Below, in pieces: positions 9,117 to 32,788 of a DNA stretch of 32,788 bases (positions within the stretch are counted from its first letter, which is position 1; every line of letters begins with the position of its first letter). The notes below the pieces were generated by a model. It ran no database searches, was not told the DNA's origin, and saw only the letters and a list, made by a program, of their open reading frames with translations. A program made the translations under genes and the position numbers. This DNA is from Candidatus Saccharimonadota bacterium (GTDB taxonomy: Bacteria > Patescibacteriota > Saccharimonadia > Saccharimonadales > Saccharimonadaceae): the NCBI GenBank assembly GCA_017460045.1, contig JAFUBU010000001.1, positions 1-32,788 on the forward strand. The letters are read 5' to 3'.

Positions 9117-9328
9117 GATACAAGGCGACCGTAAAGCCCGCGCCGCGACTCGACGACAAAGAGTGGTTGACGCTCCAGGAATGCGCGGAAATGTTCCGCC
9201 TTTCCTATCAGACCGTCCTGCGGTGTATTAAACAGGGGGACTTCGAAGGCGTTGTCGCCGTTAGAATCGGGGCGCAATGGCGGGTCGCCCGCGCGTCATT
9301 GGGACGCATTCTATCCCGTCGCGAATAA
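9113..9328 (+). CDS. Excisionase-family HTH protein, 71 aa
   Basis: Residues 18-68 fit the excisionase/MerR-like (HTH_17) DNA-binding fold: WLTLQECAEMFRLSYQTVLRCIKQGDFEGV followed by IGAQWRVARASLGRIL. Members bend DNA and steer integrase toward excision. ATG 9113 overlaps the recT stop (ATGA) and follows a strong GAAAGGAGG site. Its position 18 bp upstream of the integrase supports an Xis role, though small HTH_17 proteins may also act as transcription factors. Confidence 0.75.
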   Translation: MRYKATVKPAPRLDDKEWLTLQECAEMFRLSYQTVLRCIKQGDFEGVVAVRIGAQWRVARASLGRILSRRE

Positions 9329-9346
9329 CACAATTGAAGGCTTGCA

Positions 9347-10507: not shown

Positions 10508-11425
10508 ATCAAGGGCGGTTAAATCCGCCCACGGATAAACCCGAAACGCCCGGGACGGCGGCGTCGTGCCGCTCGATAACTGCGTGCCGTCAAGCGCGAT
10601 AAAAACCGGCGTTTCTACGGGGGAACCGTCGGAATTTAGCGCGCGCGCGTATGCGTTCCCGCTCCGAACGTAGAACGACGAATTAGGCTTGACAACCGCC
10701 CAACCCTGCGGGCGATATAAAAGCCGATAATTGACGTCGTAAGACGTCGCCGCGACCGTCTCCGTTATCGTCGCCGTTACGTCTCCGACCCGCAATGTCC
10801 CGCGCGGACAAAACCAAACGGGGCTTGAATTTATCGCATTTACAAAGGCGGGGATTTTAGGCAACGGATTTACATACTCCCGGCGGGAATATTGCATCGC
10901 AAGTGTGCCCGTTTTAAAGACTAACGGGTCGTCGAACAATAGCCCAATACTATTGCAATTAAAAACCCCGTCCAAATCGACCGCGCCCGCCGTTTCCTCT
11001 TGCTCGATTTGCGCGGAAAAGGACAAGATTGTAGACGTATCGTCCGCCGCGTCTTGCGAATCTATCGCGGCGTTAGTCGTTGTTCCGCCGATTGTGTACG
11101 TGATCTCCCACTCGTACCCGCTCCCCCTCGCTCCAATGAATCGCGGCGAAAAGTCTTTAAATATAATATCCGCATGAGTTACGCCGCGCTCGTCGACGTA
11201 AGCGTCCCCCAACTGCGGTAATTTAGGACTGAAACAGACGTCGAACGCCGTATCGCGTTTATCGTTGCTTACCGCTAAAATAACTACCGTGCCCGTAACG
11301 TTGTTAATCGGATATTTTGCAACAGATACGCCGCGCGCGTTCTTTGTAACGACTCGAACAAACGACCCGGAAAAAGTTAATCGAACGTTGCGTCCGTCTG
11401 CTTTAAACTGTGCTTTCGTAAGCAT
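10484..11425 (-). CDS. Putative distal tail protein, 313 aa
   Basis: Not recognised by family. Mostly beta-rich with few charged runs and many Thr/Val/Asn, as in virion proteins. Residues 40-150 alternate short strands (NNVTGTVVILAVSNDKRDTAFDVCF; YEWEITYTIGG). It is the gene directly downstream of the tape measure, where siphophages keep distal tail or baseplate hub genes, and it is the last gene of the late operon. The ATG at 11425 (MLTKAQF) is chosen over one 12 codons upstream because AGAGG lies 8 bases before it and it avoids overlap with the tape measure gene. Confidence 0.6.
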   Translation of the reverse strand: MLTKAQFKADGRNVRLTFSGSFVRVVTKNARGVSVAKYPINNVTGTVVILAVSNDKRDTAFDVCFSPKLPQLGDAYVDERGVTHADIIFKDFSPRFIGARGSGYEWEITYTIGGTTTNAAIDSQDAADDTSTILSFSAQIEQEETAGAVDLDGVFNCNSIGLLFDDPLVFKTGTLAMQYSRREYVNPLPKIPAFVNAINSSPVWFCPRGTLRVGDVTATITETVAATSYDVNYRLLYRPQGWAVVKPNSSFYVRSGNAYARALNSDGSPVETPVFIALDGTQLSSGTTPPSRAFRVYPWADLTALDLPDPRYL

Positions 11426-11435
11426 TTTAAAACCT

Positions 11436-14351: not shown

Positions 14352-14891
14352 TTAAAAGCCCCTCGTTTCTAGTATGTCGCGCGGCGATCTCTCCACGGCG
14401 TCGCCCTCAATTGCTCCAACCGCCGCGCGGGCGTTGACTTGCGCAAGCTCTGCTCGTAAGTCGTCCCCCGTTGCGATCTTATTGACCGCGACGTCGAACG
14501 CGCCCGCCAATCGCTCGCCGAATCCTTGCAAACTCTCAATTTTAGCGTTGAAAAGGAAACGGCGCGGGATGCCGCGTCTTTTCCCCGATTGGTAATATCG
14601 CCCGTAAATCCCCGGGTCTTTCGACCCCTTTTTCGCTCTGCTATCGTTTGTCGTCCTTTGAAAGCCGACGATTGCAACTTGTTTTCCGCTTGGATACTTT
14701 ACGACCTTTCCCGCCGTTGATCGGGATAAAAGCCAATGCGGGCGATTTAACGCCCTTTTGGCGCGTTTTGTGGCGTCGTCAGCGTATTTCGTCAAGGTCT
14801 CGAACGTCGCGACCTCTGCGGCGTTTTTAAGGGCTTGCAAATCGCCCTGGAGAATCGCTAGGGCTTCAGCGAATGTCTTCGCCTGTTTCAT
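14352..14891 (-). CDS. Possible HK97 gp10-like neck/tail protein, 179 aa
   Basis: The central segment GIYGRYYQSGKRRGIPRRFLFNA resembles the YGxxxExGTxxxPAxPFLxPA signature of HK97 gp10/tail-completion-like proteins. An N-terminal helical part (FAEALAILQGDLQALKNAAEV) is typical of that fold as well. Its location is unusual: between the tail chaperone frames and the tape measure, instead of among the connector genes. It overlaps the upstream frame by 26 bp and abuts the tape measure gene. Could instead be an unrelated minor tail protein. Confidence 0.45.
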   Translation of the reverse strand: MKQAKTFAEALAILQGDLQALKNAAEVATFETLTKYADDATKRAKRALNRPHWLLSRSTAGKVVKYPSGKQVAIVGFQRTTNDSRAKKGSKDPGIYGRYYQSGKRRGIPRRFLFNAKIESLQGFGERLAGAFDVAVNKIATGDDLRAELAQVNARAAVGAIEGDAVERSPRDILETRGF

Positions 14892-15204
14892 TCTCTCGAA
14901 CTCCGAACATGGCTAAAACGTCGTCCTTGGACATCGCTTGCCGCGCTCGTTCCTTTTCCATAAGGCGCGCGGGGTCGGGATAAATCGTTAAATCTTCTAG
15001 CGGCTTGCGCTCGGTAATCTGCAACGCGACCAATTGCGCGAATCGTAAGTCGTCGCGCCGCCAATCTAACGGCCCGTAAATCTGAAAGACGCTCCGCCAT
15101 AAGTCGCGCTCCCACTTAGGCAACCGCGCGACCTCGCTAATAGGTCGTCGCAAAAGAAAAGCGACGCGGACAAGGTTTACAAGCTCCGCGTCGCCCTCTA
15201 TCAA
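14866..15204 (-). CDS. Downstream tail chaperone frame (gpT-like), reached by -1 frameshift
   Basis: 112 codons in the -1 frame relative to the preceding gene. The only available start at its head is a TTG (15204) buried in the end of the upstream gene with no ribosome site. The frame is open through the A9 run at 15205-15213. The most likely product is therefore a fusion of the upstream protein with this frame, as with lambda G-GT. Sequence: basic helical protein (SEVARLPKWERDLWRSVFQIYGPLDW...) with an alternating charged C-terminus. Chaperones of this type coat the tape measure during tail assembly. Family assignment rests on order, size and the slippery site. Confidence 0.65.
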   Translation of the reverse strand: MIEGDAELVNLVRVAFLLRRPISEVARLPKWERDLWRSVFQIYGPLDWRRDDLRFAQLVALQITERKPLEDLTIYPDPARLMEKERARQAMSKDDVLAMFGVRENETGEDIR

Positions 15205-15527
15205 TTTTTTTTTGCGGTATCGTAACCCCGCAAACCGGCGGTGAATACGCGTAATAGCGGCGTCGCGCTCGCTCCCTTTACCGCCGCGCGGTCGTCGTCT
15301 GTAAGTAGCGGCGTGCCCTCGCTATCTGTTAGTAACATTAGCGCGGCGGAAAACCCCGCCTCGAATCGGTCGTCGATACTTTTCGCGCGGTCTTGAAAGT
15401 CTAGGAAATAGTCGTTAAAGACTAGTTGTTCTAAACCGTTTAACGGTCTAGCGTAAGCCTCGACCTCCGACCACTCGCTAATATCGACTGGGACGCGCTC
15501 GCCTTTCGTAAGTTGTTTTATTTCCAT
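15201..15527 (-). CDS. Tail assembly chaperone (gpG-like), 108 aa
   Basis: A small acidic helical protein beginning MEIKQLTKGERVPVDISEWSEVEAYARPL, as expected for the first of two tail assembly chaperone frames. It lies directly downstream of the tail tube candidate. Its last sense codons, GCA AAA AAA AAT before TGA, form a perfect X XXY YYZ slippery heptamer (A AAA AAA). Some ribosomes should slip back one base to make a longer fusion with the next frame. Start: ATG preceded by AAGAGG. Confidence 0.7.
   Translation of the reverse strand: MEIKQLTKGERVPVDISEWSEVEAYARPLNGLEQLVFNDYFLDFQDRAKSIDDRFEAGFSAALMLLTDSEGTPLLTDDDRAAVKGASATPLLRVFTAGLRGYDTAKKN
15205..15213 (-). promoter_or_regulatory. A9 slippery site for -1 frameshifting
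   Basis: On the minus strand the codons read GCA AAA AAA AAT TGA in the first chaperone frame. The heptamer A AAA AAA sits in the correct register. A one-base slip reads AAA TTG ATA GAG and continues for 112 codons. The location at the junction of the two tail chaperone frames is where siphophages normally frameshift. Confidence 0.8.
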
Positions 15528-16981: not shown

Positions 16982-18889
16982 TTAAACCTCCCCCGTCGTT
17001 TCCTCTTGCGTTTCCGTATCGTCTGAAACGTGCGTTATATTTGGGTTTACGCCCCACACGGTAACATTAAACGCGACGTCCTCGACGTCTGAAACTGTAA
17101 GCGCCCACGGCTCGACCGTCCATAAGTAACTAGGATGCCGGGGGGACGCGACCGCCGTTAGCCATTCCGACCCGCTCCACAATCTAAACGTCGTCGGCGC
17201 ATAGACAAGCGCGCTCGGGGGCGCGCTTGCGCTCGCCGTCGCGTCGATCATCTGATACGGTGAAACCTTTTCTAGGACGGTTGTTTGCCCGCTCGCCGCG
17301 CTCCAACTGAACTCGACGACCTCGCCCGTTGTATCCGCTCTGAAGTCCGACGCGCGCGCGTTAGCATTTAGGCGAATAACATTGTCCCCGATCTCGATAG
17401 AACTAACAGACGTTGCGGCGGGTAAAATCCAATAGGCGCGGGCGGTTGACGTAACCGCGCCCGTCGTCAAGGCTATCTCGCCCGCCGTCGATATTATCGC
17501 GTCCTCGCTCGTTAATTCTATCGTTCCCGACGTAAGTGTAAACGCGCCCGATACCGTCGCCGACTCGCTTATTTTAAGCGCGCCGCCGTCCACTGTCAAC
17601 GCCCCAAACGTCGCCGATACAACGGATAAAACAACACCGGACGGGATTGTATAAGCCGCGACCGTCGCCGGGGCTAATACGTCGACGACCGCCGGGGAAA
17701 CTGGCGTTAAATTGTCTAGATCGTCGCCGTTAGTAAGCGCGACCGCGCCCGTTACCGATAGTCCGCCCGCTCCGATATGCGCGACGATCTCGCGCGACGT
17801 ATCCGCCGGAGCGGTCGTTGCGATTGATACCGCGCCCGCGCCGGTCGTGATCTCCCCGCCGTTTGTCGGGCTCCACGTCCCCGCGAAATCTACGGTTTCT
17901 CCAACGAATAAGGACGCGACGTCGTTTGGTAGAACGTCGCCGCCCGTCGTCGCCCATCTATCCGACGCCCAACCGTCCGACGACTCCATTGAAGGCGTTG
18001 TTACGTCGGCGCCGTTGGCGTCCTTGCCGACCCAATACAAGTCCGCGTCGACCGTCTCGAACGCGCCAAGCGTGCCGTTTACCCGCGCGACGCCTTCGGC
18101 GTCGTATCTTGCGCCCGTGCTATTGTAGCCCCGCGCCTGCGGACTACTGCTTAATATATGCGGGTTCCATTCTTTCCACGCCGTCGGCGTCCACGTCCAA
18201 TTAGCGGGCGGCCCTGCGACTAAATCTGCGTTGTCCAGTTTGCAATCGACGATTTCTCCGCCGTATTCTTGAAATTGATATATGTATCTCGTTAGATTTC
18301 CGATAAAACTACAATTCACGAACGATAAACATTTAGCGCCCTCGATCTGTACGACGATTAGTGCCCCCCCAGTCGCAACGAGCGTCGCCGTCGTTGTGCT
18401 TCTATTTCCAAGAAATGCGCAATTCTTAAACGTAATCGGTTGATTAGCGATCTGCGCGCCCGTTTGATTACAAATCGCCCCAGTTGTGCTTGTGTGCCCC
18501 GCGAATGTGCATGCGTTAAACACTATCTCGCTTTGATATAGCTTCGACCCGCTGTTTTGCAAGAAAAGACATTTACGCGCGGCCGTCTGCTGTGAATTTT
18601 CAAATTTAACATTTTCGATTATGGTTTGTCCATTTTGCGACCCGCGCGCAATCGTCATTAGTTGCGCCGTATAAGAACTGTCCCGCCTTATAGTTAAGCG
18701 GTTGTCTCCGTCCAATGTAACATTTAGACGGGTCGAATTGCTCTCGAGCGCAATTACCGACCTCGGCTCGACTACTAGCTCAAGTCCAGGATACGGCGTA
18801 ATTTTATCGTTGTTTCCAGACGCGGCTATGACCGCGCGCAACGAACCGTCGCCGCTGTCTGCGTTGCTCGTGATATAAAGGGTTGCCAT
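16982..18889 (-). CDS. Beta-helix/adhesin-like protein, probable tail spike or fibre, 635 aa
   Basis: The N-terminus (MATLYITSNADSGDGSLRAVIAAS) resembles the start of bacterial right-handed beta-helix surface proteins of the CSLREA/Pmp type. Residues about 50-230 show short repeated strands ending in Asn/Cys turns (VTLDGDNRLTIRRDS, IIENVKFENSQ, IVFNACTFAGH, ITFKNCAFLGN, LSFVNCSFIGN), typical of a parallel beta-helix. Residues 330-500 are Thr/Ser/Ala/Gly/Val-rich with ladder-like repeats (GALTVDGGALKISESATVSGAFTLTSG). There is no signal peptide. Inside the late operon, a receptor-binding spike or fibre is the likeliest role. It may have been built from a host adhesin-type domain. It sits between a methyltransferase and tail genes, an uncommon place for a spike. 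Confidence 0.6.
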   Translation of the reverse strand: MATLYITSNADSGDGSLRAVIAASGNNDKITPYPGLELVVEPRSVIALESNSTRLNVTLDGDNRLTIRRDSSYTAQLMTIARGSQNGQTIIENVKFENSQQTAARKCLFLQNSGSKLYQSEIVFNACTFAGHTSTTGAICNQTGAQIANQPITFKNCAFLGNRSTTTATLVATGGALIVVQIEGAKCLSFVNCSFIGNLTRYIYQFQEYGGEIVDCKLDNADLVAGPPANWTWTPTAWKEWNPHILSSSPQARGYNSTGARYDAEGVARVNGTLGAFETVDADLYWVGKDANGADVTTPSMESSDGWASDRWATTGGDVLPNDVASLFVGETVDFAGTWSPTNGGEITTGAGAVSIATTAPADTSREIVAHIGAGGLSVTGAVALTNGDDLDNLTPVSPAVVDVLAPATVAAYTIPSGVVLSVVSATFGALTVDGGALKISESATVSGAFTLTSGTIELTSEDAIISTAGEIALTTGAVTSTARAYWILPAATSVSSIEIGDNVIRLNANARASDFRADTTGEVVEFSWSAASGQTTVLEKVSPYQMIDATASASAPPSALVYAPTTFRLWSGSEWLTAVASPRHPSYLWTVEPWALTVSDVEDVAFNVTVWGVNPNITHVSDDTETQEETTGEV

Positions 18890-18893
18890 TTCT

Positions 18894-19826
18894 CTACCTC
18901 GTAAATCTCGACGCGTAAACGGTCTCGACGCGCTCGAACTCTTTCGCGGCGCGATAATTGCGCGCCAGGCTTGTCGTCGCGCTAAATTGGAATTTATGCG
19001 CCCTGTCGTGCAATTGCTCGAATATCGGCGCGTCGTAGCAACTTAGGACAAAAGAACCTTTTAAATTGTATAACGTTTCAACTAGCTTGATTTGGTCGAC
19101 GTTGCAACCTCGATACGCTCGACCGGGCGCGCCGTGCTTGCTCGCCGTAAGATACGGCGGGTCAACGTAGAACAACGTGCCCGGCGCGTCGTACTTGCGA
19201 AGGCATTCTATCGCGTCTAATCCTTCAATTGTAACCGTAGCAAGCCGCGCGGAATAATCCGCAAGCGCTTTTTTCCGGCGCGCGCCGTATCCAATAACCC
19301 GCGCCGCGCCCGCGCCTTTACAACCGCCGCCAAACGCGCCGAATACGTCGCCCGCGAATCCGTACCATTGACAATATAAAAGGCAATACGCCGCGACCGT
19401 TTCGTCCGTGTAGAACTCTAAACGCGCCGCAATCTTGCGCTTTTCTATCGACTCGCCGCGCATATACGCGCGCCCAATATCGCGCGCCTCGTACCATAAC
19501 GCCCGCGACATTGGCGACATTTCTAAAAGCTCGTCAAGCTCTCGTCGTTTGTCTTCGTCGCGTAAAACGCGCAATAACGCGACGATACAACCGTTGGCGT
19601 CGTTTAATATTTCCGCGCTTTCCTGCGGCTTGCCGAAAAACAAGCCGCCCGCCCCGCAAAAGGGCTCAACGTAAAGCGTGCGATTGTAGCGGGCTAAAAT
19701 TGGCAATATGTTTTTTCTCTGCCTAAATTTCGACCCCGCAAGGTTAAACAACGGCGGCAGGCTTGTATCCGCCGCTAAAATATCCGATTTGTCATCGGGT
19801 GCCCGTCGGTATGCTCTGCCGTCCAT
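18894..19826 (-). CDS. D12-class (alpha) N6-adenine DNA methyltransferase, 310 aa
   Basis: Motif order is that of Dam/DpnM-type enzymes: substrate and cofactor-binding NLAGSKFR (28-34), the SAM-binding motif EPFCGAGG (54-61), and the catalytic TLFYVDPPYL with DPPY at 222-225. Reaction: transfer of methyl from SAM to N6 of adenine in a short site that cannot be read from sequence. No partner restriction nuclease is seen, so it is probably a solitary enzyme shielding phage DNA or regulating it. GATC is common in this window, so motif avoidance gives no hint. The start overlaps the previous gene by 52 bp and lacks a good ribosome site, so a slightly later start is possible. Confidence 0.85.
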   Translation of the reverse strand: MDGRAYRRAPDDKSDILAADTSLPPLFNLAGSKFRQRKNILPILARYNRTLYVEPFCGAGGLFFGKPQESAEILNDANGCIVALLRVLRDEDKRRELDELLEMSPMSRALWYEARDIGRAYMRGESIEKRKIAARLEFYTDETVAAYCLLYCQWYGFAGDVFGAFGGGCKGAGAARVIGYGARRKKALADYSARLATVTIEGLDAIECLRKYDAPGTLFYVDPPYLTASKHGAPGRAYRGCNVDQIKLVETLYNLKGSFVLSCYDAPIFEQLHDRAHKFQFSATTSLARNYRAAKEFERVETVYASRFTR

Positions 19827-21670: not shown

Positions 21671-22315
21671 TTACGCGTCTATAACGCAGATTTGCTCGTC
21701 ACCCGTTGGCGTCGTTACGGTAACGTACTTCGTTTTTAGTCCGACTCCGTATTTCGTGCCGGCCGAATCGGGAACGCGCCCGCTTAAATTGAAATACCTT
21801 GCATCTAGGTACAAAAAGCCGCTATCGACGTAGTTATTAAGGTTCCCCGTGCCGGTATAGACCGCAACGCCTCGCGTTCCCGTATTGTCGACTAGTCGCG
21901 CGCCGGTCTGATTGTCCACGCGCGATATGTCTATCGAATAGCCGCCCGCGTACACAGTTTGCGCTTGCGCGTCTTCTTGCAACGTCTCCCAACGTCCGCG
22001 CCAAATAACAAACATACGCCATGAATTAGCCGACCCGCGCGGGGTTGCCAACGCCGTCGGCGCGTAAACCGTGAACTCGAAAGAGGTATCGGCGCGTCCA
22101 GCCTGATTGATAAATACTGCCGTTGCGTAGTACGTCCCGGCGTTGTTGCGATTCCACGACGACCGCAACAACGCCGGGCGAATATCGTAAAACAAAGACG
22201 CGCGCGAACTTTCTACATTATCCGCCGCCGCGCTTTTCGCGCTCGAATCCGTCGCCGCGTCGACCTTTTCCGCCCACGATCTCCTTACCAGAACGCCGGG
22301 GTCTGCTCCGTCCAT
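21671..22315 (-). CDS. Hypothetical, likely virion-associated protein, 214 aa
   Basis: Not recognised. After a helical start (SWAEKVDAATDSSAKSAAADNVESSRASL) it is beta-rich with many Thr/Tyr/Gly residues (AGTYYATAVFINQAGRADTSFEFTVYAP; KYVTVTTPTGDEQICV). This style suits a capsid-surface or tail protein or a carbohydrate-binding module. It overlaps the methyltransferase 3' end by 31 bp and abuts the connector-region gene. Confidence 0.55.
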   Translation of the reverse strand: MDGADPGVLVRRSWAEKVDAATDSSAKSAAADNVESSRASLFYDIRPALLRSSWNRNNAGTYYATAVFINQAGRADTSFEFTVYAPTALATPRGSANSWRMFVIWRGRWETLQEDAQAQTVYAGGYSIDISRVDNQTGARLVDNTGTRGVAVYTGTGNLNNYVDSGFLYLDARYFNLSGRVPDSAGTKYGVGLKTKYVTVTTPTGDEQICVIDA

Positions 22316-23058
22316 TTATCCGCCTCCTCTTTCGTTGTTAGTCGTTGCGCCCACGTAGTATTGCGCAACCTATTTTCCGCAACGTCTGCGATTGTAGGGA
22401 CATTCTCGACCCCGACAAAGTTTATCCCGAAACGGGCGCAAGCCGCGCCGGTCGTCGCCGACCCGCAAAAAGGGTCTAAAACGTCGGTTGCGTCGTCTGG
22501 TAGAATCCTTAACAGTTCCGCGCACACGGTCTCGTTTTTCTGTGTCGGATGAATGCGCGACTCGTTAGCGGGGGCGCTCCCTTCTAAATAACCCTTTACA
22601 AACTTGTCGGATACGCCGTTGACGGTGCCCCATATAACAAACTCGCACACTTGCGTAAAATACCCGGGATGGCATCTTGCGTTGTTCTTGTTCCACGGTA
22701 TCAAACCGCGATAAACGATCCCGCTACTCTGCATCGCCATTGTAAAGGCGGGTATCATCACCCAATCTGTAAAGCAGAAAAAGTAGCCGGGCGCGCGTAA
22801 AACAAGCGCCGACGCTTGCATCCAATGTCGCGCGAACTCATACGCCGCGAACTGATTTGGCGCCTCGCTAAAATTGCAATCTTCAAGCCGCGAACCGACG
22901 CGCGCTAAATTAACATACTTACGCGCGCCGCTACCGTAACTGCCGCCTGGGCGCGAACAATAGGGCGGGTCGGTCAAGATCGCGTCGAACTTGCGCCCCT
23001 CCCTATGGAAACGTTGCAACGTCTCGAAAGAGTCGCCGCGAATAATTTCATACGTCAT
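22285..23058 (-). CDS. Beta-class site-specific DNA methyltransferase, 257 aa
   Basis: Motif order marks a beta-class N4-cytosine/N6-adenine methyltransferase. Catalytic DAILTDPPYCS (DPPY 30-33) comes first, then a HPTQK motif (170-174), and the SAM-binding DVLDPFCGSATTGAACARFGINFVGVE (193-218) comes last. It modifies a short DNA target that is not deducible here. With the D12 enzyme at 18894 this gives two DNA methyltransferases of different classes in one small genome, with no restriction nuclease recognised. That suggests protection against host restriction. The leader before it contains a strong GC hairpin (23097-23126). Confidence 0.9.
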   Translation of the reverse strand: MTYEIIRGDSFETLQRFHREGRKFDAILTDPPYCSRPGGSYGSGARKYVNLARVGSRLEDCNFSEAPNQFAAYEFARHWMQASALVLRAPGYFFCFTDWVMIPAFTMAMQSSGIVYRGLIPWNKNNARCHPGYFTQVCEFVIWGTVNGVSDKFVKGYLEGSAPANESRIHPTQKNETVCAELLRILPDDATDVLDPFCGSATTGAACARFGINFVGVENVPTIADVAENRLRNTTWAQRLTTKEEADKWTEQTPAFW

Positions 23059-23182: not shown

Positions 23183-23404
23183 TTAAAATTCATTTTCCGG
23201 CGCGACTAGCTGCGGCCCCGCTTCAATCCGACAAGGGGACGCGTTGATCTTGTCGACGATTGCCTGCGCCTCATAAAGGGCGGTTTGCGCTTTCTCTCGC
23301 TCTCTCCCCGCCGTCGCCATTGCAACAAGCGCGACAAGCAATAGAACGCATTCTAGCGCTAGTTTTAAAGCCTCTAGCGCGCGGACGGCGCCTTCTCCCG
23401 TCAT
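23183..23404 (-). CDS. Small one-pass membrane protein, 73 aa (holin/spanin-like?)
   Basis: One strong transmembrane segment (about residues 15-33, ALECVLLLVALVAMATA) is followed by a charged helical tail (GREREKAQTALYEAQAIVDKI). There is no lipobox. ATGA overlap with the protease-thioredoxin gene implies co-translation and a joint function. Its size suits a holin, pinholin or i-spanin, but a membrane partner for the fusion protein is equally possible. No family was recognised. Confidence 0.6.
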   Translation of the reverse strand: MTGEGAVRALEALKLALECVLLLVALVAMATAGREREKAQTALYEAQAIVDKINASPCRIEAGPQLVAPENEF

Positions 23405-25176
23405 TCCTTGCCCCCCTTCGTAACGTCGCGCGACGCCGCGTTTGCGGCGGCTATAAGCGCCGCAAACTCTTTCGCGCGGGTATACAAGCGGCCAATTGCG
23501 CCGAAGGCAACCCGCGCCGCGATCACAGCAAGAAAGACGACCGCGAAAAGAACACAGACAAAACGCGCGCGATAAACGCGCCAGGCGCTCGCTAGTCGCT
23601 CCCCTATGGTTTGACTCACTTTCGCGCCGATCTCTTCTCCTGCGTCGTTCAAAAGCCCTTGCGCGCGGTCTACGGTCTCGTCGATCTTGCCGTCGATCTT
23701 TTTCTCGAGTCGCGCCGCTAGCGCGTCGAGCGCTCTTGCTCCGATACCGCCGCGCGACTCTTGCGCGTCGCTCTCGTTGTCGCTCTCGTTGTCCCCACGA
23801 CGTTTGCGCGGGATAATTGGCGTCGGGGGCGGGGTCGTATCCTCGCTCTCGCCGTCGTCTGTAAGGTTATCGTTTCGACCGTCGCCCCGGTCTCGTTCTA
23901 TGAGATCGCGCAACAACCCGGCGGGCGGATTAGTCGCCGCGACTCTTTCCGCGTCGAAATCGTAGGACGCCGGGTCGGTTATATAGACCGCGATTGTCTT
24001 TTCAATCTCGCCCGGCTCCGATACGACGACGCCGTTTTCCGCTCCCATTCTGTAACGCTTGCCCGCGTCGTCGCCGTCGGTCGACTCGATAGGGGGGGCG
24101 GGGGGTAAAACCTCACTTTGACCGTTGAAACGCGCATGCGCGCTCGATATGGCTTTTACAATCGCGGAATAACTGCCCAGGCGTTTAATATCCGCAAACG
24201 TTGCGCGCGCGATCTCTTGCGCGGCTTCGTCCACAATTAAAAATGTCGGTATCTCTGTTACGTTATACGCGCTCGCAAGATACGCCTCGTCCTTTTTCAA
24301 CGGGTCAACGCGTCTAACTTCGTAGCCCGCGACCGTTTCCGTCTGGAGTAAGCCTTGCGCCGCGACCTCGCAGGCGGGGCAATCCTCCGACGTAAAGGCA
24401 AGGATAGAAAGTTCCTTCGATCTATCCGCGACAAGTCGCCGCGTATAACCTGCGGGCGCGCTCGTTGCTACAAGCCCGCCGTTTAACAGGTTTCGCAAGG
24501 GAAGGGCGCCCCCCTTGCTTTCGTCTTGCCCCTTTGCTCCTAGTAGATACGTTAATTTGGCGACGTCGTAAACTCGCCCGCCGTCGACTACGCAAATACC
24601 CGACCCGGACTGCCCAGGAACGGGGGGCGGGGAAAAAATCGCCATACCGCCGTCTAATCGCTCGATTGTGCCCCTCCAACCTTGATCGAATCGCCCGTCG
24701 GGGCATCCGCTCGACATAAAGGGACGACCGACAAGCGCGGCGGGGTCAACGCTTTTCATAGGGATATACGGCGGATCAATCTTCTTCAACTCGTTTGCGT
24801 CGACTTCGATAATAGCGAAATCGCGCCCCGTGTTGTCGTTGCGCGATTTAAAGACGACCGACCCCGCGACGGTCTCCATCTTGCTATTCGTCCAAAAGTC
24901 AAGTTGACAAGCGCGGTTGGCGCTCGTTACGTGATCGTTGGTAGAAATATACGCCTTGCCCGTTTGCTCGTTGTATCCGTTAAAAATCCCGGTGCCGCGC
25001 GCGTTGCTAACTCGAACGCGACAAGACGCGGCGTGCACGTCGCTTAGCGTTGCGTCCGCGCGCCTAAATTCAACCGCGAAAATGGACGCGGGCGCGATTA
25101 GACAAGCAAGGACAAGCGCGCCCGGGCTCGTCAATGGATACGAAAAAAGACGACGCAATAACAAGGCGTATTTCAT
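23401..25176 (-). CDS. Membrane-anchored trypsin-like protease fused to thioredoxin domain, 591 aa
   Basis: Domains in order: an N-terminal export signal (residues 1-35, hydrophobic GALVLACLIAPASIFA) and a trypsin-like serine protease domain (about 45-235) with a visible triad His82 (STNDHV), Asp119 (GRDFAIIEV) and Ser190 (PGQSGSG). A thioredoxin-like domain follows (about 250-350) with active site Cys266-Pro-Ala-Cys269 and cis-Pro310 (EIPTFLIVD). Then comes a disordered acidic/Pro linker (about 430-475), an amphipathic helix region, a transmembrane segment (538-562) and a short basic tail. Protease and redox domains should face the periplasm. The fusion is unusual for a phage. It may cleave and reduce disulphide-linked envelope proteins, or mature surface proteins; both are inferences. 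It is transcribed with a small membrane protein and a methyltransferase, between head and tail genes. Confidence 0.8.
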   Translation of the reverse strand: MKYALLLRRLFSYPLTSPGALVLACLIAPASIFAVEFRRADATLSDVHAASCRVRVSNARGTGIFNGYNEQTGKAYISTNDHVTSANRACQLDFWTNSKMETVAGSVVFKSRNDNTGRDFAIIEVDANELKKIDPPYIPMKSVDPAALVGRPFMSSGCPDGRFDQGWRGTIERLDGGMAIFSPPPVPGQSGSGICVVDGGRVYDVAKLTYLLGAKGQDESKGGALPLRNLLNGGLVATSAPAGYTRRLVADRSKELSILAFTSEDCPACEVAAQGLLQTETVAGYEVRRVDPLKKDEAYLASAYNVTEIPTFLIVDEAAQEIARATFADIKRLGSYSAIVKAISSAHARFNGQSEVLPPAPPIESTDGDDAGKRYRMGAENGVVVSEPGEIEKTIAVYITDPASYDFDAERVAATNPPAGLLRDLIERDRGDGRNDNLTDDGESEDTTPPPTPIIPRKRRGDNESDNESDAQESRGGIGARALDALAARLEKKIDGKIDETVDRAQGLLNDAGEEIGAKVSQTIGERLASAWRVYRARFVCVLFAVVFLAVIAARVAFGAIGRLYTRAKEFAALIAAANAASRDVTKGGKE

Positions 25177-25191
25177 TCTAACAACCTTCGA

Positions 25192-25449
25192 TTAACGATT
25201 GTTTTTCTTTGCGTTAGCGGGTCTGCCCGCGCGCTTTCGCGGCGCGGGCGTTCCCTCGCTCTCGCTCGACAAAGTACCCGCCGGAGCGGTCGTTGCCGTT
25301 TCGTTTCCTAAAATCGCCGACGCAATCGTCGCCGCGCTCTCGCTCGGATATTCAATCCGACCTAAAGGCGCGCCCGTTTTTACGTCGATCAACTTTAAAG
25401 ACGTAACCGCTCCGGGGGTAATAATTACCGATACGCGCGAATCTTTCAC
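25192..25449 (-). CDS. Hypothetical protein with basic tail, 85 aa
   Basis: Not recognised. The first half is beta-like (VSVIITPGAVTSLKLIDVKTGAPLGRIEY). The end is disordered and very basic, with an AT-hook-like KRAGRPANAKKNNR. It shares the peptide ESEGTPAPR, encoded by an identical 28-bp DNA segment, with the portal C-terminus (28188-28215). It uses a GTG start with TAGGAG upstream. A head-associated or DNA-contacting role is possible from position. Confidence 0.6.
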   Translation of the reverse strand: MKDSRVSVIITPGAVTSLKLIDVKTGAPLGRIEYPSESAATIASAILGNETATTAPAGTLSSESEGTPAPRKRAGRPANAKKNNR

Positions 25450-25460
25450 GGCTTGCGCTC

Positions 25461-25853
25461 CTAGTTAGTAGCGACCTTTGCGTCGGGCGCGATCATAACG
25501 CAAAGCCGCCCCGAAATATCCGGCACCTTAACGACGTACCCGATAAAGATAGAACCGCTCGCAAGACTCAACGCGCCTTCCGTCGCGCTCGACGGCGTAT
25601 AGTAAACCGGCGTTCCGACTGCGGGGTCTTCGGTCGTCCCTTCGGGATAATCGAACGCAAACACGCCCGCGCGGCTAAAAGCCCCCAATTGTCCCGATTG
25701 GATAGGGAGTTCCGCGACTCCGAAAAGCCCGGACGTAGAAAAAGCCGGGCAATAAATCGTATTTGGCGCGACGTCTGCAACCGCGACCGCATAGAATCGC
25801 GACGAATCCGCCTGGATACGCGAGGCGGGCGCTTGTCCGAAAGTATCTGCCAT
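25461..25853 (-). CDS. DUF2190-like capsid decoration protein, 130 aa
   Basis: The pattern ASRIQADSSRFYAVAVADVAPNTIYCPAFSTSGLFGVAELPIQSGQLGAF and the closing IGYVVKVPDISGRLCVMIAP fit the DUF2190 family, beta-rich proteins that stud the capsid exterior and stabilise it. It follows the capsid fusion gene by 18 bp, the usual place, and AAGAGG precedes the ATG. Confidence 0.75.
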   Translation of the reverse strand: MADTFGQAPASRIQADSSRFYAVAVADVAPNTIYCPAFSTSGLFGVAELPIQSGQLGAFSRAGVFAFDYPEGTTEDPAVGTPVYYTPSSATEGALSLASGSIFIGYVVKVPDISGRLCVMIAPDAKVATN

Positions 25854-25871: not shown

Positions 25872-28130
25872 CTATTCAGTAACAACGACGATCCCGTCCG
25901 CGTATTGCGTCGTTACGCTGTAGGGGTAAATCATTTGATAAGTCAAGCCCCACACGCTAGGGTCGTAATCAAACGTCCTGATCTGCGGCGCTTCGTATCC
26001 AACTAACTTATTGACACAAACGACCGGGCGCGTTTGCGGGTCTCGGATGAACGCCCAGCAACCGCTCGCCAACAAGCTCGGCGTCGTGCCGTCGGCTTTC
26101 GTCGCGCGCGCGTGCGCCGCGTCAAGATACGCCCACACGAAAGGCTCGAACCGCCCGCGCCAAATGTTAGGCGTTGCGACGCCGCCATTTAGGGCGACGA
26201 ACTCTTGGTGGTAGATTTTTAGGGCGTTGCTTGCGTATTTCTGCGGGGTCAACAGTTTAGCGCGATCAACACGCAACGGCGCGCCGTTTGCGTTGCTAAA
26301 CGACGCAAGCGCGGTTAAGGCGGCGTCAATGCCGCTTTCGTCTAACGTCGCGCCCGTAACAAGGTTGCCGCGCGCCGCCGATACAAGCGCCGCTCCCGCC
26401 GCGTCTTTCGCGTCCCCGTCGATAACTCGCCAGAACGTTTCCGCGACGTCGTGTTCGATACAGTCGTCCCCCAACGTCTCGAACTGGCGCAAGAGTTCCG
26501 CGAAAACGTCGATTTGGTCGTTAATAATAACCATTTCGGGGATCGTGAAATTAACGCCGTTGGCTTTCGTCGCGCGGTCGTAACGCTCCGTCGTAAACGT
26601 GATATTACTAATCGCGCCCGTTTCGCTAATCTCTCGAAGGCGTCCTTGCAACGTCGGCAGATAGCTTGGAACGCTATTAAAATCTGCCAACGTATTAACG
26701 CGCGCGACGTCTTGCCAAACTCGCTCCGCCGTTTCTGCCGTCGGCTCGAGGAACGCTTGCAAGACAAGCGAAAAGACGTCCAAGGCGTTAATCGTGCTAA
26801 ATCCCGCCGCCGCCGTCGCTTTGCGGCAATTATTGCGACAATCGCTCCACGCGTCAAGAAGATTGGTATTGACTCCGAAAGATCCGCGCCTGTAGCTATT
26901 GTTACTCGCCGCAATTACGGTCTTTAAAGTCGCGCCCCTGTGTTCTTTACTTTCCGCCGCGTCAATAACCCTTTGGTCGAAATGGAAAGCCGCCTGGACT
27001 CGCTCCGGGCTCATACCTAGCGTGCGCGCAAGACTCGCCGCGATAACGTCTTGCGCCTTCGGCTCATTGACTCGACCGGCGCGCCCGATAGTAGGGAACC
27101 CCGCGCGCGCTTGCGCTCGCTTAACCCTGCGTTGCGTATCGTCCACGCTCCAGCCCCTTTCGATAGCTTTCGCCGCAAGTCGCGGCGATTTTTTCGCAAT
27201 GATACGCAACGCCGCAACGCGCCGCGCCTCTTTGCCTTTCGCTCGCTTAATCTTTGCAACCGCTTTTTTAGCGGCGATTTTAGCGACCGCCTCCAGGTCG
27301 TCGACTTCATCGCGCGCGATCTCGTCGACGATCTCGTCCTTGATGTTTTCCAACTCGTCGACGATCTCTGCCGCGTCCAATTTCTCGGCCGCGACGTCAA
27401 CGACGTCTTCGATAATTTCCGCGCGCGTTTCTTCTTCGTCGACAATCGCGTCCACTGCGTCCGAGGCGACGTCTTCGGCGATTTCGTCGACTTTGGCGTC
27501 GATTGCTTCGTCGACAATGTCTTCGACGTCAACCGCCGCGCGCGCTTCGTCTCGCTCCATGTCTTCGATCTTGTCGCGCTCTCGTTCTTTTTCTTCGTCC
27601 ATTGTTTCGGCTCCTTTCAAAGCTCTAAACAGTTTAACAGAGGCGCGCGCGACGCGCGCCGACCCGTCGCCGCCGATAGGTACAAAGCTACCCTCGACAA
27701 GCGCGCCGTTATGTACGATAGCCGCCGCCCCGATAATATCGCGCCCGTTGACTTGCGCCCGCTCCCCGTCGCCGATCCACTCTATGTCGTTGTCCGTGAA
27801 ACGGTAAACGCCTATACTAGGAACGAACGGCGCCACATTGTCTTCAATATCAAAGACTTTCGCCGCCGCCTCCGTGCCCCCTACGATAACGTCGCAAGAT
27901 ACCGTCCGCCCGTCGTTTACAATGTTGTCCAAATAGCCGACGATCTGCTCTAGATCGTGTTCTAATAGGGCTTTAGGCGCGGGGTCAATCGATAGCGTCG
28001 ATAAATCTATATAGGCGGGGACGTCGAATCCGTCGATAAATGCGGGGCCGCCCGAATAAAGCGGGTCGAAACGATACCGCCGCGTCTCGGTTTCCGCTCG
28101 CGTGTCTGCTATAAATGCCTTTAAAATCAT
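25872..28130 (-). CDS. Prohead protease-scaffold-major capsid fusion, 752 aa
   Basis: One gene carries three head functions. Residues 1-170 resemble an HK97-type (S78) prohead protease, with His58 in ALLEHDLEQIVGYLDNI and Ser105 in VPSIGVYR as likely catalytic residues. Residues 177-350 are a strongly acidic, helical scaffold-like segment (repeats of IVDE, AEDV and DDLEAVAKIA) ending in a basic stretch. Residues about 385-752 are the major capsid protein, with an HK97-like fold inferred. Protease/capsid fusions are known in some phages but uncommon. Met177 has its own strong ribosome site (AAAGGAG), so a scaffold-capsid form without protease is probably also made. The start ATG at 28130 follows GGAG. 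Confidence 0.85.
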   Translation of the reverse strand: MILKAFIADTRAETETRRYRFDPLYSGGPAFIDGFDVPAYIDLSTLSIDPAPKALLEHDLEQIVGYLDNIVNDGRTVSCDVIVGGTEAAAKVFDIEDNVAPFVPSIGVYRFTDNDIEWIGDGERAQVNGRDIIGAAAIVHNGALVEGSFVPIGGDGSARVARASVKLFRALKGAETMDEEKERERDKIEDMERDEARAAVDVEDIVDEAIDAKVDEIAEDVASDAVDAIVDEEETRAEIIEDVVDVAAEKLDAAEIVDELENIKDEIVDEIARDEVDDLEAVAKIAAKKAVAKIKRAKGKEARRVAALRIIAKKSPRLAAKAIERGWSVDDTQRRVKRAQARAGFPTIGRAGRVNEPKAQDVIAASLARTLGMSPERVQAAFHFDQRVIDAAESKEHRGATLKTVIAASNNSYRRGSFGVNTNLLDAWSDCRNNCRKATAAAGFSTINALDVFSLVLQAFLEPTAETAERVWQDVARVNTLADFNSVPSYLPTLQGRLREISETGAISNITFTTERYDRATKANGVNFTIPEMVIINDQIDVFAELLRQFETLGDDCIEHDVAETFWRVIDGDAKDAAGAALVSAARGNLVTGATLDESGIDAALTALASFSNANGAPLRVDRAKLLTPQKYASNALKIYHQEFVALNGGVATPNIWRGRFEPFVWAYLDAAHARATKADGTTPSLLASGCWAFIRDPQTRPVVCVNKLVGYEAPQIRTFDYDPSVWGLTYQMIYPYSVTTQYADGIVVVTE
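27600..27618 (-). promoter_or_regulatory. Internal ribosome site and start in capsid fusion
   Basis: On the minus strand, GAAAGGAG (27618-27611) lies 8 bases before an in-frame ATG (27602-27600) encoding Met177 of the fusion, exactly at the junction between protease and scaffold. A 576-aa scaffold-capsid protein would result. This supplies capsid in excess over protease, as lambda does with C/Nu3. Confidence 0.65.
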
Positions 28131-28144
28131 CGTTTACAACTCCA

Positions 28145-29665
28145 CTAAAAGGAAGTCGCCGCCGGGGTTGACTTTGGCTCGTCAATGCGCGGCGCGGGCG
28201 TTCCCTCGCTCTCGCCGTCAAGGTTATCGTTTACACTCTCGCCCGTATCCGTCGCCGCTCCGAATATTTCTGGGAACATAGCGCGCTCGCGTTCATACTC
28301 CCTGCAGAATGCTTCAAAGTCGCCGCCCGGGTGTATCTGTTCCCATATCTCGCGCAAGCTACGTTGTCCGCTTTTTAGCTCGATACTAGACGTGCGCGCG
28401 TAGCTTTCCGCGTCGATTAGCGGTGGGGACGGCCAAACCCACTCCCACTCCGCCTCCTCTAACGTCGGAAGATTAACGGGCGCGTCATAACTCGTTATCT
28501 CATAAAACCGCGCGAAAACTCTATCGCATAAGTCGCGCTCGAACAAGTCGCGTTGCAACGTGCTAATTAGTAATTCAAAAGGTTGATTGTCAAGCCGCCC
28601 GGACGCGAAATTATATTCGTGCGAACTCCCCGTCGCTTTGTTTCTAGGAAGTCCTAGCGCGTAGCCGATTTGCGCCAACAGATTTGCGGTGTAACTGTCC
28701 GCCGCCGTGTTGGGTTGCGTCGCGTTGAATCCGCGCGCGGTCGTTCCCGGGGGGAGCGTAAGTATCCGCCCGTTGGGCGTTTCAAGTTGCTTGAATACGT
28801 CGTAGGGCGCGCCGTATTGCGGGTCGATAAGGTCGCCTTCCGCCGCTTGCTCGAATCCGTCCGTCGTTTCGATTGTAGCCCAAACGCGCGTCGACTGTTT
28901 CGCCGCTTCGATACTCGCCGCCGTATATTCCGTCAACTGTTGCAAGATACGCAACACGGGCGCGAACCACGTAATGCCGCGCGTTTGCTCTGCAAACTCT
29001 CGCCGGAAGAGATGATAACACATCTCCGGCGGCACGTCTTGATAACGCGCCGGGTTGTATCCGCTTGAAACGGTCTCGGGCGCGTCGTAAACTGTATAGC
29101 TTTCTACGTTTCCGAACTCATCAAAGCGCACGCCGTCTTGATAATCGCGCGTCTCGATAGTCGCGTTGGCGTTCCCAACTCTTGCTGAATCAATTAAATA
29201 CAAATCAAAGCCGGAGGCAAGGCGGGGATTTTTACGCGCTAAAACGAACGCCTCCCCGTCTATAACGATAGACTTCATAACGTCGCGCAAGATCGCCGCA
29301 AACCTTGTCCCCGTCGCGAATTGTTCCCACTTATGCTCGACGTAAAGCGCGGCGGCGCGGTCGATCTCTTTCGCACGCCATTTCTCGAATCCAAGGAACC
29401 GCAAGCGCGGCCCGTTTCCGACGACGTAAAGCCCAAAAAGATTAGGGATCCCGGCGGCATGCGGGTTATTCTGCGCCATATCGCGCGCTTGACTTCGTAA
29501 CGTCGCGCGATCTCTTGCGTTGCCTACTTGCCAAGGGGTCTCGGGGCGCGCTCCCTGAATAAAGGCGCGCGCGGTGTCTTGGTTAGGGCGCGCGGCGGCG
29601 TAAGACGCCGCGACCCGTCGCCGCTCTCGTTTAAAAGCCGACTGTTTAGCGCGTTTCTTTTTCAT
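28145..29665 (-). CDS. Lambda-family portal protein, 506 aa
   Basis: Full-length portal of the lambda gpB type. Hallmarks: a basic N-terminus, NNPHAAGIPNLFGLYVVGNGPRLRF, a central DVPPEMCYHLFRREFAEQTRGITWFAPVL (the YDVPxxxVIHLFxxxRPGQTRGVxWLAPVL signature) and ASGRLDNQPFELLISTLQRDLF. Function: the dodecameric ring at one capsid vertex through which DNA enters and leaves. The C-terminal 45 residues are disordered and hold the ESEGTPAPR peptide shared with the 85-aa protein. ATGA overlap with the gpW-like gene. Confidence 0.9.
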   Translation of the reverse strand: MKKKRAKQSAFKRERRRVAASYAAARPNQDTARAFIQGARPETPWQVGNARDRATLRSQARDMAQNNPHAAGIPNLFGLYVVGNGPRLRFLGFEKWRAKEIDRAAALYVEHKWEQFATGTRFAAILRDVMKSIVIDGEAFVLARKNPRLASGFDLYLIDSARVGNANATIETRDYQDGVRFDEFGNVESYTVYDAPETVSSGYNPARYQDVPPEMCYHLFRREFAEQTRGITWFAPVLRILQQLTEYTAASIEAAKQSTRVWATIETTDGFEQAAEGDLIDPQYGAPYDVFKQLETPNGRILTLPPGTTARGFNATQPNTAADSYTANLLAQIGYALGLPRNKATGSSHEYNFASGRLDNQPFELLISTLQRDLFERDLCDRVFARFYEITSYDAPVNLPTLEEAEWEWVWPSPPLIDAESYARTSSIELKSGQRSLREIWEQIHPGGDFEAFCREYERERAMFPEIFGAATDTGESVNDNLDGESEGTPAPRIDEPKSTPAATSF

Positions 29666-30254: not shown

Positions 30255-32522
30255 TTAGACTCCGAAACGACGCGCAAAACGTCGCTTTTTCTTTTCAGTA
30301 AGCGCCGCGACGTCAACGACTTCGCAACCGACGTATTCCGCAAGGACGCGACAAGCGGCGTCCGTGTCTAGGAACTCGTTATCCGAAACGCGGGGACGTT
30401 TCATGCTCCAAAAACGGTATAACAAGCCGCTTTTGCTTCTTTCGACGTAATCCTCGGCGGTTTGATGGGCGCAAAACATTGCGAACGAATCAGGATTGAC
30501 AAACGAATCCCGCGCGCATATTGTAGCCGCGCCCGGGCGGTCTGCGGGTAATTTCCACGCGGCGTCGCGGCGCGTCTTTGCCGTGTTTGCGTCGTAAGTA
30601 AAAGAGGCGTAAACGTTAGCGTAGCCGTGCGCAATCGCTCGCCGCGCTTGCGCATTCTCTATCCAATCGTAACCGCAACCGGCGCGGGCGTTTCTTCTCC
30701 ACTCTCCCTGCTTTAAGTCATAATAGCGCATAAGCCTGGAGCGGCTCTCTTGACCGTAGCAAGGGATGGCGCGCCCACTGAATCGTCCGCCGTCTATGCG
30801 GTGGAACTCGTCGACCGCCTGCCATAACGCCGCCTCCATTTCGGGGTCTTCACAGTCAAGCCCGCAAATTGCAAGGAACGGGAAACGCCGACGCGCGCGC
30901 CCGCGCGGATGCGCGTGTTGCTCGAAATCTGTTGCTTGCTCAACGTCGAACGGCTCCCCGCGCTCGTTAAAATATGCCTGGTTAAAGATTAAAAGCAAGC
31001 AATCAAGCGCGGCGTCCTTCAATCTGTCGAACTTGTCGCCCCGCTTATAAACCTCTTGTAAATCCTTTTCGTAGCTCTTTTTCGTGGCGACGTCCTGCTC
31101 CGGGAAAATTCCGAAATCGACAACGTGCGCTAGACTAAAATCGCGCGAAAAGGCGACAACCTCGTAATTTAAATAATGCTCGCCAGCGTCGATATGGGCG
31201 GTCATAACGTCCGCCCCCGCCGGGATGACGTAACGGCGCAAGACGTCGCCGGAGGCTCCCTTGCGCTCCTTGCGCGCGACGTCAACCGCCGCTAATCCCG
31301 CCCCCGTCTCGACTGCGGCGCGTCTTGCGTCGTTTTGAAACTCACACCAAAAGGACGCCTCGGACGCGCTCCAATAGTCGATAGCATAATGGATTGCGTC
31401 GACTTGCCACGCCTCTTTCTGCCTTTCGTCGTCGACGACTACGCCGCGCGCCAAGTCGTCGCGGCGCCGCGTATAATAAGCCGCAAGTTCTTGTCTCGCT
31501 TGCTCCATGTTTTCGGCGTGCTTGCGTAGCAACGCCTCCCGCACGCCTCGGTACTCTTTCCACGCGTCGAAATTATCGGGCAGGCGTTTAACAAACGGGA
31601 TAACAACTGTGCCAAATTCTGGTATATCCTCGATCATTCTTTCCGCGACGTCGCCCGGCTGATTTTGGGTTATCGCGGACAACACTGTAAGACTTTCGCG
31701 TGAACCGTCTTTACGTCTCCCCGCTAATCCTCTAATCGATTTTTGAATCGTTGAAATTATCCCGTCTACCTCGACCGCCGACCGCGCCGTCGCGTCGTTT
31801 TGGACGTCGTCTAGCATTACTGCCCGAACGCGAAAAGAACCAACGCCTTGGATTGTATGGTTAGCCCCGCGCAATCCGCCGCTTGATATCGACGTAAACC
31901 GCAAGAGTGAACCGCCGCAACGCGCGCCGGGGACATTTGGAAACACTATACGGTCGGACTTTATCTCGATCTTGAGCGGCGTCCCGTCAACCGTCAAGGG
32001 ACGTTGCGCCCGCCCCTCCCTGCGTTGCAATGGATAACTAATCTCGGGATATAACCGCGTAAAGAGTCGCGCGTCCTGCCCGCGCGCCTGGTAGTCGTCA
32101 TAAAGCGCCGCCGCGAACCAGTACGCGGCTTGTTGCGTCGACGCCCCGCCTTCCGCCGTAACGTAGATAGCGTGCCGGACTAGTCCCTCGCATAACGCTT
32201 TGAATAATAAGCCGCTTAAAATCGACGTCTTGCCCAAACCTCTGTAGGCTTCGATATTACGCCACGACCCCTTAACGATAGCGTCCCAGGCTAGTTGGAT
32301 AAACTTCTCTTGGCTCTCCGTAAAATCGGCGAAAAAAACGTCGGGCAATATTTCCCGCAACCAATCGGCGGGCGACGCCTCGAGATCGCGCCGAAGGCTC
32401 AAATTCTCACAGGGCGGGATCGGCGCGATCTCGTTAATCTCTCGCCCGCGCTCTCGACTGTATTGATTTTCATAATCGCGCTTGGCTTGCGCGCCCTGCG
32501 CGGTCGTCGGTCTCGTTGCCAT
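30255..32522 (-). CDS. terL: Phage terminase large subunit, 755 aa
   Basis: Two-domain packaging motor. The ATPase domain has Walker A AYRGLGKTS (92-100) and Walker B AVMLDDVQ (234-241). The segment RFTSISSGGLRGANHTIQGVGSFRVR before Walker B is typical of large terminases. The nuclease domain begins near VMTAHIDAGEHYLNYEVVAFS, with Asp in the usual first catalytic strand. Function: cuts concatemeric DNA and pumps it into the prohead. The ATG at 32522 (MATRPTTAQG) is chosen over a start 49 codons upstream because that extension is Arg/Gly-rich, low-complexity and unlike terminases. It is the first gene of the leftward late operon. No small subunit was recognised next to it. Confidence 0.9.
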   Translation of the reverse strand: MATRPTTAQGAQAKRDYENQYSRERGREINEIAPIPPCENLSLRRDLEASPADWLREILPDVFFADFTESQEKFIQLAWDAIVKGSWRNIEAYRGLGKTSILSGLLFKALCEGLVRHAIYVTAEGGASTQQAAYWFAAALYDDYQARGQDARLFTRLYPEISYPLQRREGRAQRPLTVDGTPLKIEIKSDRIVFPNVPGARCGGSLLRFTSISSGGLRGANHTIQGVGSFRVRAVMLDDVQNDATARSAVEVDGIISTIQKSIRGLAGRRKDGSRESLTVLSAITQNQPGDVAERMIEDIPEFGTVVIPFVKRLPDNFDAWKEYRGVREALLRKHAENMEQARQELAAYYTRRRDDLARGVVVDDERQKEAWQVDAIHYAIDYWSASEASFWCEFQNDARRAAVETGAGLAAVDVARKERKGASGDVLRRYVIPAGADVMTAHIDAGEHYLNYEVVAFSRDFSLAHVVDFGIFPEQDVATKKSYEKDLQEVYKRGDKFDRLKDAALDCLLLIFNQAYFNERGEPFDVEQATDFEQHAHPRGRARRRFPFLAICGLDCEDPEMEAALWQAVDEFHRIDGGRFSGRAIPCYGQESRSRLMRYYDLKQGEWRRNARAGCGYDWIENAQARRAIAHGYANVYASFTYDANTAKTRRDAAWKLPADRPGAATICARDSFVNPDSFAMFCAHQTAEDYVERSKSGLLYRFWSMKRPRVSDNEFLDTDAACRVLAEYVGCEVVDVAALTEKKKRRFARRFGV

Positions 32523-32717
32523 TGTCTCGATCTGCTTCTTTGAATCGTCGCGGGGGGCGCGACCGGAAAATGACCAAAAACCGGCGCGCCCCTCGCTCCG
32601 ACGTCGCGACCGTCGCCGCGACCGCAAGGACAAGCGGGCGGGGGAACCGACCAACCCCCCCCCAACCAATGCCGGGCGCCGGGTATACCCCGCCCCCGGT
32701 TGTTTTGTCTTGTTTCA

Positions 32718-32777: not shown

Positions 32778-32788
32778 CTCGCGCCGAC
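32778..32788. repeat. Right copy of 11-bp terminal direct repeat
   Basis: CTCGCGCCGAC, identical to positions 1-11. See the left copy for interpretation. Confidence 0.55.

Follow-up and report, generated by a model that had tools for sequence, protein, structure and literature searches.

An exported protease–thioredoxin protein with a membrane anchor, encoded in the late operon of a rumen planctomycete phage, is a candidate envelope-breaching enzyme

What would a phage do with an exported protein that joins a serine protease to a thioredoxin-like domain and ends in a membrane anchor? The question is raised by a gene in the stretch of phage DNA analysed here (32,788 nucleotides, hereafter the window), and it touches on a broader one: how phages exit from peptidoglycan-less bacteria is open, and planctomycete phages are nearly uncharacterised. 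In phages of peptidoglycan-walled hosts, the lysis functions are those of endolysin and spanin. A sequence-only reading of the window had described an export signal, the residues His82, Asp119 and Ser190, a CPAC site and a C-terminal anchor in a single protein, P0001, co-translated with a 73-residue membrane protein, P0002. Re-examination confirmed the ORF, its coordinates and all of these residues:

23401..25176, minus strand: P0001, a 591-residue exported protein with protease, thioredoxin and membrane anchor (ORF and translation)
25075..25176, minus strand: P0001 signal peptide, residues 1–34 (hydropathy), probably cleaved near A34
24472..25035, minus strand: P0001 S1 (Trypsin_2/HtrA-like) protease domain, residues ~48–235 (Pfam, alignment, model and fold match)
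24931–24933, 24820–24822 and 24607–24609, minus strand: codons of the predicted catalytic residues H82, D119 and S190 of P0001
24142..24444, minus strand: P0001 thioredoxin-like domain, residues ~245–345 (Pfam, model, profile and the relative L087)
24370–24381, minus strand: P0001 CPAC motif, residues 266–269
23503..23559, minus strand: P0001 C-terminal transmembrane helix, residues ~540–558 (hydropathy)
23183..23404, minus strand: P0002, 73 residues, one transmembrane helix at residues ~12–30 (hydropathy)

Taken alone, P0001 scores below the curated Pfam cut-offs for both of its domains (Trypsin_2, PF13365, 22.5 bits for a cut-off of 27.6; Thioredoxin_2, 19.4 bits for a cut-off of 27). Its relatives L042 and L087 both exceed the Trypsin_2 cut-off, with about 42 bits each, and L087 exceeds both cut-offs (Trypsin_2, 41.9 bits; Thioredoxin, PF00085, 33.0 bits). 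The columns of the His–Asp–Ser triad, with its GxSG (S190 of P0001 lies within GQSGSG), are invariant in all 15 aligned homologues, 14 of which retain the CxxC, and a profile built from 15 homologues retrieves thioredoxins (E 8e-10). Once relatives are included, the predicted assignment of a protease and a thioredoxin-like domain is thus firm.

The structure prediction that had been proposed as a check gave a two-domain model. An AlphaFold2 run on full-length P0001 with two sequences only was unusable (mean pLDDT 42.7) and was replaced by a run on residues 36–350 with 16 sequences, which reached a mean pLDDT of 86.9 and shows a beta-barrel domain joined by a low-confidence hinge to a thioredoxin-like one. 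In a fold search, in which the matches listed are those of the protease half, this half matched DegP, DegQ, DegS and Rv3671c (Z ~21, rmsd 2.3–3.0): at this pLDDT and this similarity to HtrA proteases, the model has the chymotrypsin-like fold of an S1 protease. The order of helices and strands in the other half agrees with a thioredoxin fold around CPAC and IPT (residues 309–311), the latter containing the cis-Pro-like P310, and the model, the 15-homologue profile and the PF00085 score of L087 all point to a CxxC and a cis-Pro set in a thioredoxin fold. A linker separates the thioredoxin-like domain from the C-terminal membrane helix. Pfam detects no PDZ domain in P0001, which therefore does not belong to the HtrA family proper.

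Which bacterium does the phage infect? The window was binned with a 0.84-Mb genome (listed members of the genus, 0.5–0.9 Mb) that has its own MraY and two penicillin-binding proteins (PBPs), and we rejected this bin as the host. Its GC content is 47% versus about 56% for the window, and no relative of P0001 was found among 196 genomes related to it; most likely, the phage contig (G000:C79) was misbinned. The nearest relative of P0001 (58% identity) occurs in the rumen planctomycete metagenome-assembled genomes RUG284 and RUG13182, and also in IMG/VR contig 2799112366, which agrees with the RUG284 contig in both length and match. Furthermore, the window resembles the prophage G455:C41 (capsid 54%, decoration protein 53%, tail proteins 26–55%), beside which lie hisS, ispH, fabH, gmd and dusB, identifying G455:C41 as a planctomycete chromosomal contig. 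The planctomycete host that had been envisaged is therefore borne out by the closest relatives and by a syntenic prophage embedded in a planctomycete chromosome, and the sequence relationships make it a well-supported prediction that the window is a phage of a rumen planctomycete. Tetranucleotide comparison picked out no single host, and in a phylum-wide sample the matches, RUG13182 itself apart, spanned the thioredoxin part only.

The gene of P0001 lies among head genes of the late operon:

25192..25449, minus strand: 85-residue protein between the decoration protein and the protease (a 78-residue ORF occupies the same place in the L042 prophage)
25461..25853, minus strand: head decoration protein (phrog_122), upstream neighbour of the protease (53% to L042)
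25872..28130, minus strand: major capsid protein, extended at its N terminus, upstream (Pfam; 54% to L042)
28145..29665, minus strand: portal protein, same late operon (PF05136, 1.4e-50)
30255..32669, minus strand: large terminase, with which the late operon opens (48% to L046)

All genes from the terminase (32669) through the last tail gene (10484) are on one strand, and the gaps between them are mostly short or replaced by overlaps; the largest, 124 nt, directly follows the P0002 ORF. The P0001 gene has a gap of 15 nt upstream and a 4-nt overlap downstream (ATGA) with the start of P0002, which couples the two and agrees with the co-translation first proposed. At the expected site of the tail assembly chaperone, genes of which are a common site of programmed frameshifting, are two overlapping small ORFs (14866–15527, minus strand), the first being phrog_344. 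Both contig ends carry the same 11 bp, CTCGCGCCGAC (1–11 and 32778–32788), 109 bp from the terminase start; these could be cohesive (cos) ends, in which case the linear genome would be complete.

This position invites two structural explanations. As a protease whose gene adjoins the capsid and cement genes, P0001 might be a prohead or structural maturation protease; we consider this exceedingly unlikely, since a signal peptide and an anchor imply an extracytoplasmic location, the capsid gene comes with a long N-terminal extension of its own and the capsid of the relative L049 weakly matches the prohead protease Peptidase_S78 (E 0.0045). Encoded amid head and tail genes, it might instead be a virion-associated protein that aids passage through the envelope at entry, a role suggested early on. 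The export signal and the C-terminal anchor are hard to reconcile with cytoplasmic virion assembly and argue against P0001 being part of the virion, which makes an entry role very improbable.

By hydropathy, P0001 and P0002 are the only proteins of the window's late operon with strong signal or membrane segments. The same holds for G455:C41, whose late operon is likewise complete and shares the core gene order: the protease fusion and a 69-residue helix protein, the counterpart of P0002, are the only products to stand out, if a hydrophobic stretch within the tape measure is set aside. A Pfam scan covering P0001 and 30 ORFs of the window, though not all of the small ones, revealed no peptidoglycan hydrolase domain; within this scope, the earlier statement that no endolysin is recognisable in the window stands. 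The only other protein of the window with a strong signal or membrane segment is an exported CAP-domain protein (5743–6621, plus strand) encoded in the early region on the opposite strand, with a Cys-rich N-terminal part and 16 Cys in total.

The pairing of an HtrA/DegS-like protease half with a thiol–disulphide exchanger could also serve quality control or maturation, i.e. fold or clear exported proteins of the phage or the host during infection. The Cys-rich CAP protein, which has a homologue (57%) in the related prophage G197:C10, would be a suitable client. Against this stand the missing PDZ domain, the location of the P0001 gene in the late rather than the early operon, and the fact that the searched part of the G455:C41 prophage contains no match to the CAP gene; we regard quality control as improbable.

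Is P0001 an isolated oddity? A search for the fusion in other phages of the host group, suggested with the original observation, covered 397 genomes of the host's order and then IMG/VR, and it found protease–CxxC fusions that sort into about 18 separate lineages (counted by hand from the match lists). Most complete members, many of them from planctomycete prophages and rumen viral contigs, end in a transmembrane helix. The fusion is thus a family and not a one-off. Searches with tblastn against 50,697 phage records returned no relative of P0001, P0002 or the capsid. Between the window and L002, dN/dS is about 0.09, at a dS near saturation; purifying selection is strongest on the S1 protease and looser on the thioredoxin and C-terminal parts. 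The CxxC dipeptide is highly variable (CPAC, CPPC, CEPC, CKPC, CAAC).

A short transmembrane ORF frequently follows the fusion gene, overlapping or adjoining it. Partners similar in size to P0002 are present in L002, L042, L049 and L087, and no small helix protein was found next to the fusion in L041, L043, L052, L083 and L084. These proteins align loosely between clades, with three invariant columns, and P0002 matches no holin family in Pfam or phrog.

Large viral contigs (L092–L103, e.g. L102) encode proteins that share with P0001 an N-terminal hydrophobic segment and a homologous S1 domain. Unlike in P0001, the CPxC of the aligned group L096–L101 belongs to a zinc-ribbon-like motif (CPxCG...CPE), so that we dropped it as a thioredoxin site; no C-terminal helix was found in these proteins. 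A related exported protease with a helix and without CxxC (L057, 7809–9440) is encoded in a rumen planctomycete genome, within an element that also has an inovirus gene (123–1595) for Zot, the filamentous-phage assembly ATPase. On the 161-kb viral contig L102, three consecutive genes (8965–11992) encode a protein with one helix, a YiiX-like hydrolase and the S1 protease, in a lysis-cassette-like arrangement. A YiiX-like gene lies directly upstream of the protease in the distant relatives L061, L069 and L102. These assignments are weak (phrog_1128; NF007458 far below cut-off), and the genes co-occur with PBP-positive and PBP-negative hosts alike. With no Pfam C92 match above cut-off, we downgraded them as proof of a peptidoglycan-lysis cassette; their support for a lysis role is suggestive only.

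The fusion loci occupy different sites in the packaging, head and tail clusters of unlike phages: after the capsid and decoration genes (window and L042), between the terminase and a Mu-type portal (PF06074; L002), or before gp10-like and tape-measure genes (L047–L049 and L053). In the L063 group, a protease with a helix and without thioredoxin lies between cement (PF09956) and head–tail joining (PF25138) genes. Such a shifting site is reminiscent of cargo genes and suits another explanation, namely envelope remodelling or superinfection exclusion: an anchored protease–reductase might trim or reduce proteins at the cell surface, such as receptors or components of secretion systems or pili, and thereby alter that surface or make the infected cell or lysogen resistant to other phages. 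The predicted export and anchoring of P0001 and the second exported protein of the same phage, that with the CAP domain, also fit. However, the tight placement of the P0001 gene inside the late operon speaks against it, as does its conservation in the core syntenic between the window and G455:C41. Indeed, the window's methylase, RusA, D12 methylase and beta-helix genes lie outside this core, indicating that the protease pair is retained core and not variable cargo. On balance, we consider remodelling or exclusion rather unlikely, if a serious contender. Note that the window's late operon includes two DNA methyltransferase genes (22285–23058 and 18894–19826, minus strand) along with the RusA resolvase gene; proteins like its right-handed beta-helix protein (16982–18889, minus strand) are encoded close to the protease in L088, L091 and G197:C10.

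What envelope would P0001 face? The PBP transpeptidase domain (PF00905) is absent from all 15 fusion-carrying genomes sampled, and MraY gave no match above cut-off in the 13 checked, with controls behaving as expected. A link between the fusion and PBP loss looked striking in the first genomes but loses its force once the base rate is considered: of 397 genomes sampled from the order, 346 have no PF00905 (51 have PBPs), so that finding no PBP-positive genome among 15 carriers has a chance probability of about 0.13. The absence of PBPs in carriers is therefore not significant on its own; it fits a host with no need of an endolysin and does not prove peptidoglycan-free lysis. The Cys-rich host envelope supposed in the sequence-only reading fared less well, as the exported proteins of the hosts, in a small sample drawn up by crude gene calling, showed no Cys enrichment. 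For Rhodopirellula, a disulphide-bonded protein sacculus is cited (PMC2754498), and peptidoglycan has been reported for planctomycetes in general (PMC5147048).

Our favoured reading, which we hold to be about an even call, is that P0001 serves late in infection to lyse the cell or breach a planctomycete envelope poor in peptidoglycan. P0001 would be Sec-exported late and anchored in the inner membrane, its C-terminal helix keeping both domains at the outer face of that membrane. There, the HtrA-like protease would cleave envelope proteins and the thioredoxin domain would open their disulphides, and host DsbD (encoded in all 10 host genomes checked) could keep the domain reduced. P0002, probably a holin-like partner, would time release or permeabilise the membrane, and together the two proteins would do the job of endolysin and spanin. 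Three findings lend support to lysis: the sampled host genomes have neither PBP transpeptidase nor full MraY, the complete late operons encode no other clear export or membrane protein, and the fusion recurs in many phages. One of the unassigned ORFs of the window could conceivably hide a hydrolase, which counts against it. More tentatively, and with somewhat less than an even chance in our estimate, the pair may represent a new kind of phage lysis system: an anchored protease–disulphide reductase and a small membrane partner would take the place of endolysin and spanin in peptidoglycan-less bacteria with a disulphide-linked protein envelope. Literature searches turned up no description of such a lysis protein from planctomycetes. 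The protease–thioredoxin family offers a concrete lysis candidate that can be mutated. If the reading is correct, the family would also provide a probe for what holds the planctomycete envelope together, a disputed matter (disulphide protein sacculus, as cited in PMC2754498, versus peptidoglycan, PMC5147048).

The protein shares features with several known systems. Like the S1 proteases HtrA and DegS, P0001 is exported, with a predicted chymotrypsin-like double barrel and a His–Asp–Ser triad, and DegS too is membrane-tethered; unlike them, it lacks a PDZ domain, continues from the protease into a thioredoxin-like domain and has its anchor at the C terminus. With thioredoxin (Trx) and the membrane-tethered or periplasmic TlpA/ResA-like oxidoreductases it shares the CxxC, the cis-Pro-like motif and the thioredoxin core, in hosts that have DsbD, whereas its thioredoxin is fused behind a protease and its CxxC dipeptide is very variable across the family. 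Finally, as predicted from the genes, P0001 and P0002 resemble holin/endolysin/spanin cassettes in their late operon, co-translated one-helix protein and envelope-targeted enzyme, and differ from them in that a protease and a disulphide domain are found where those cassettes have a peptidoglycan hydrolase.
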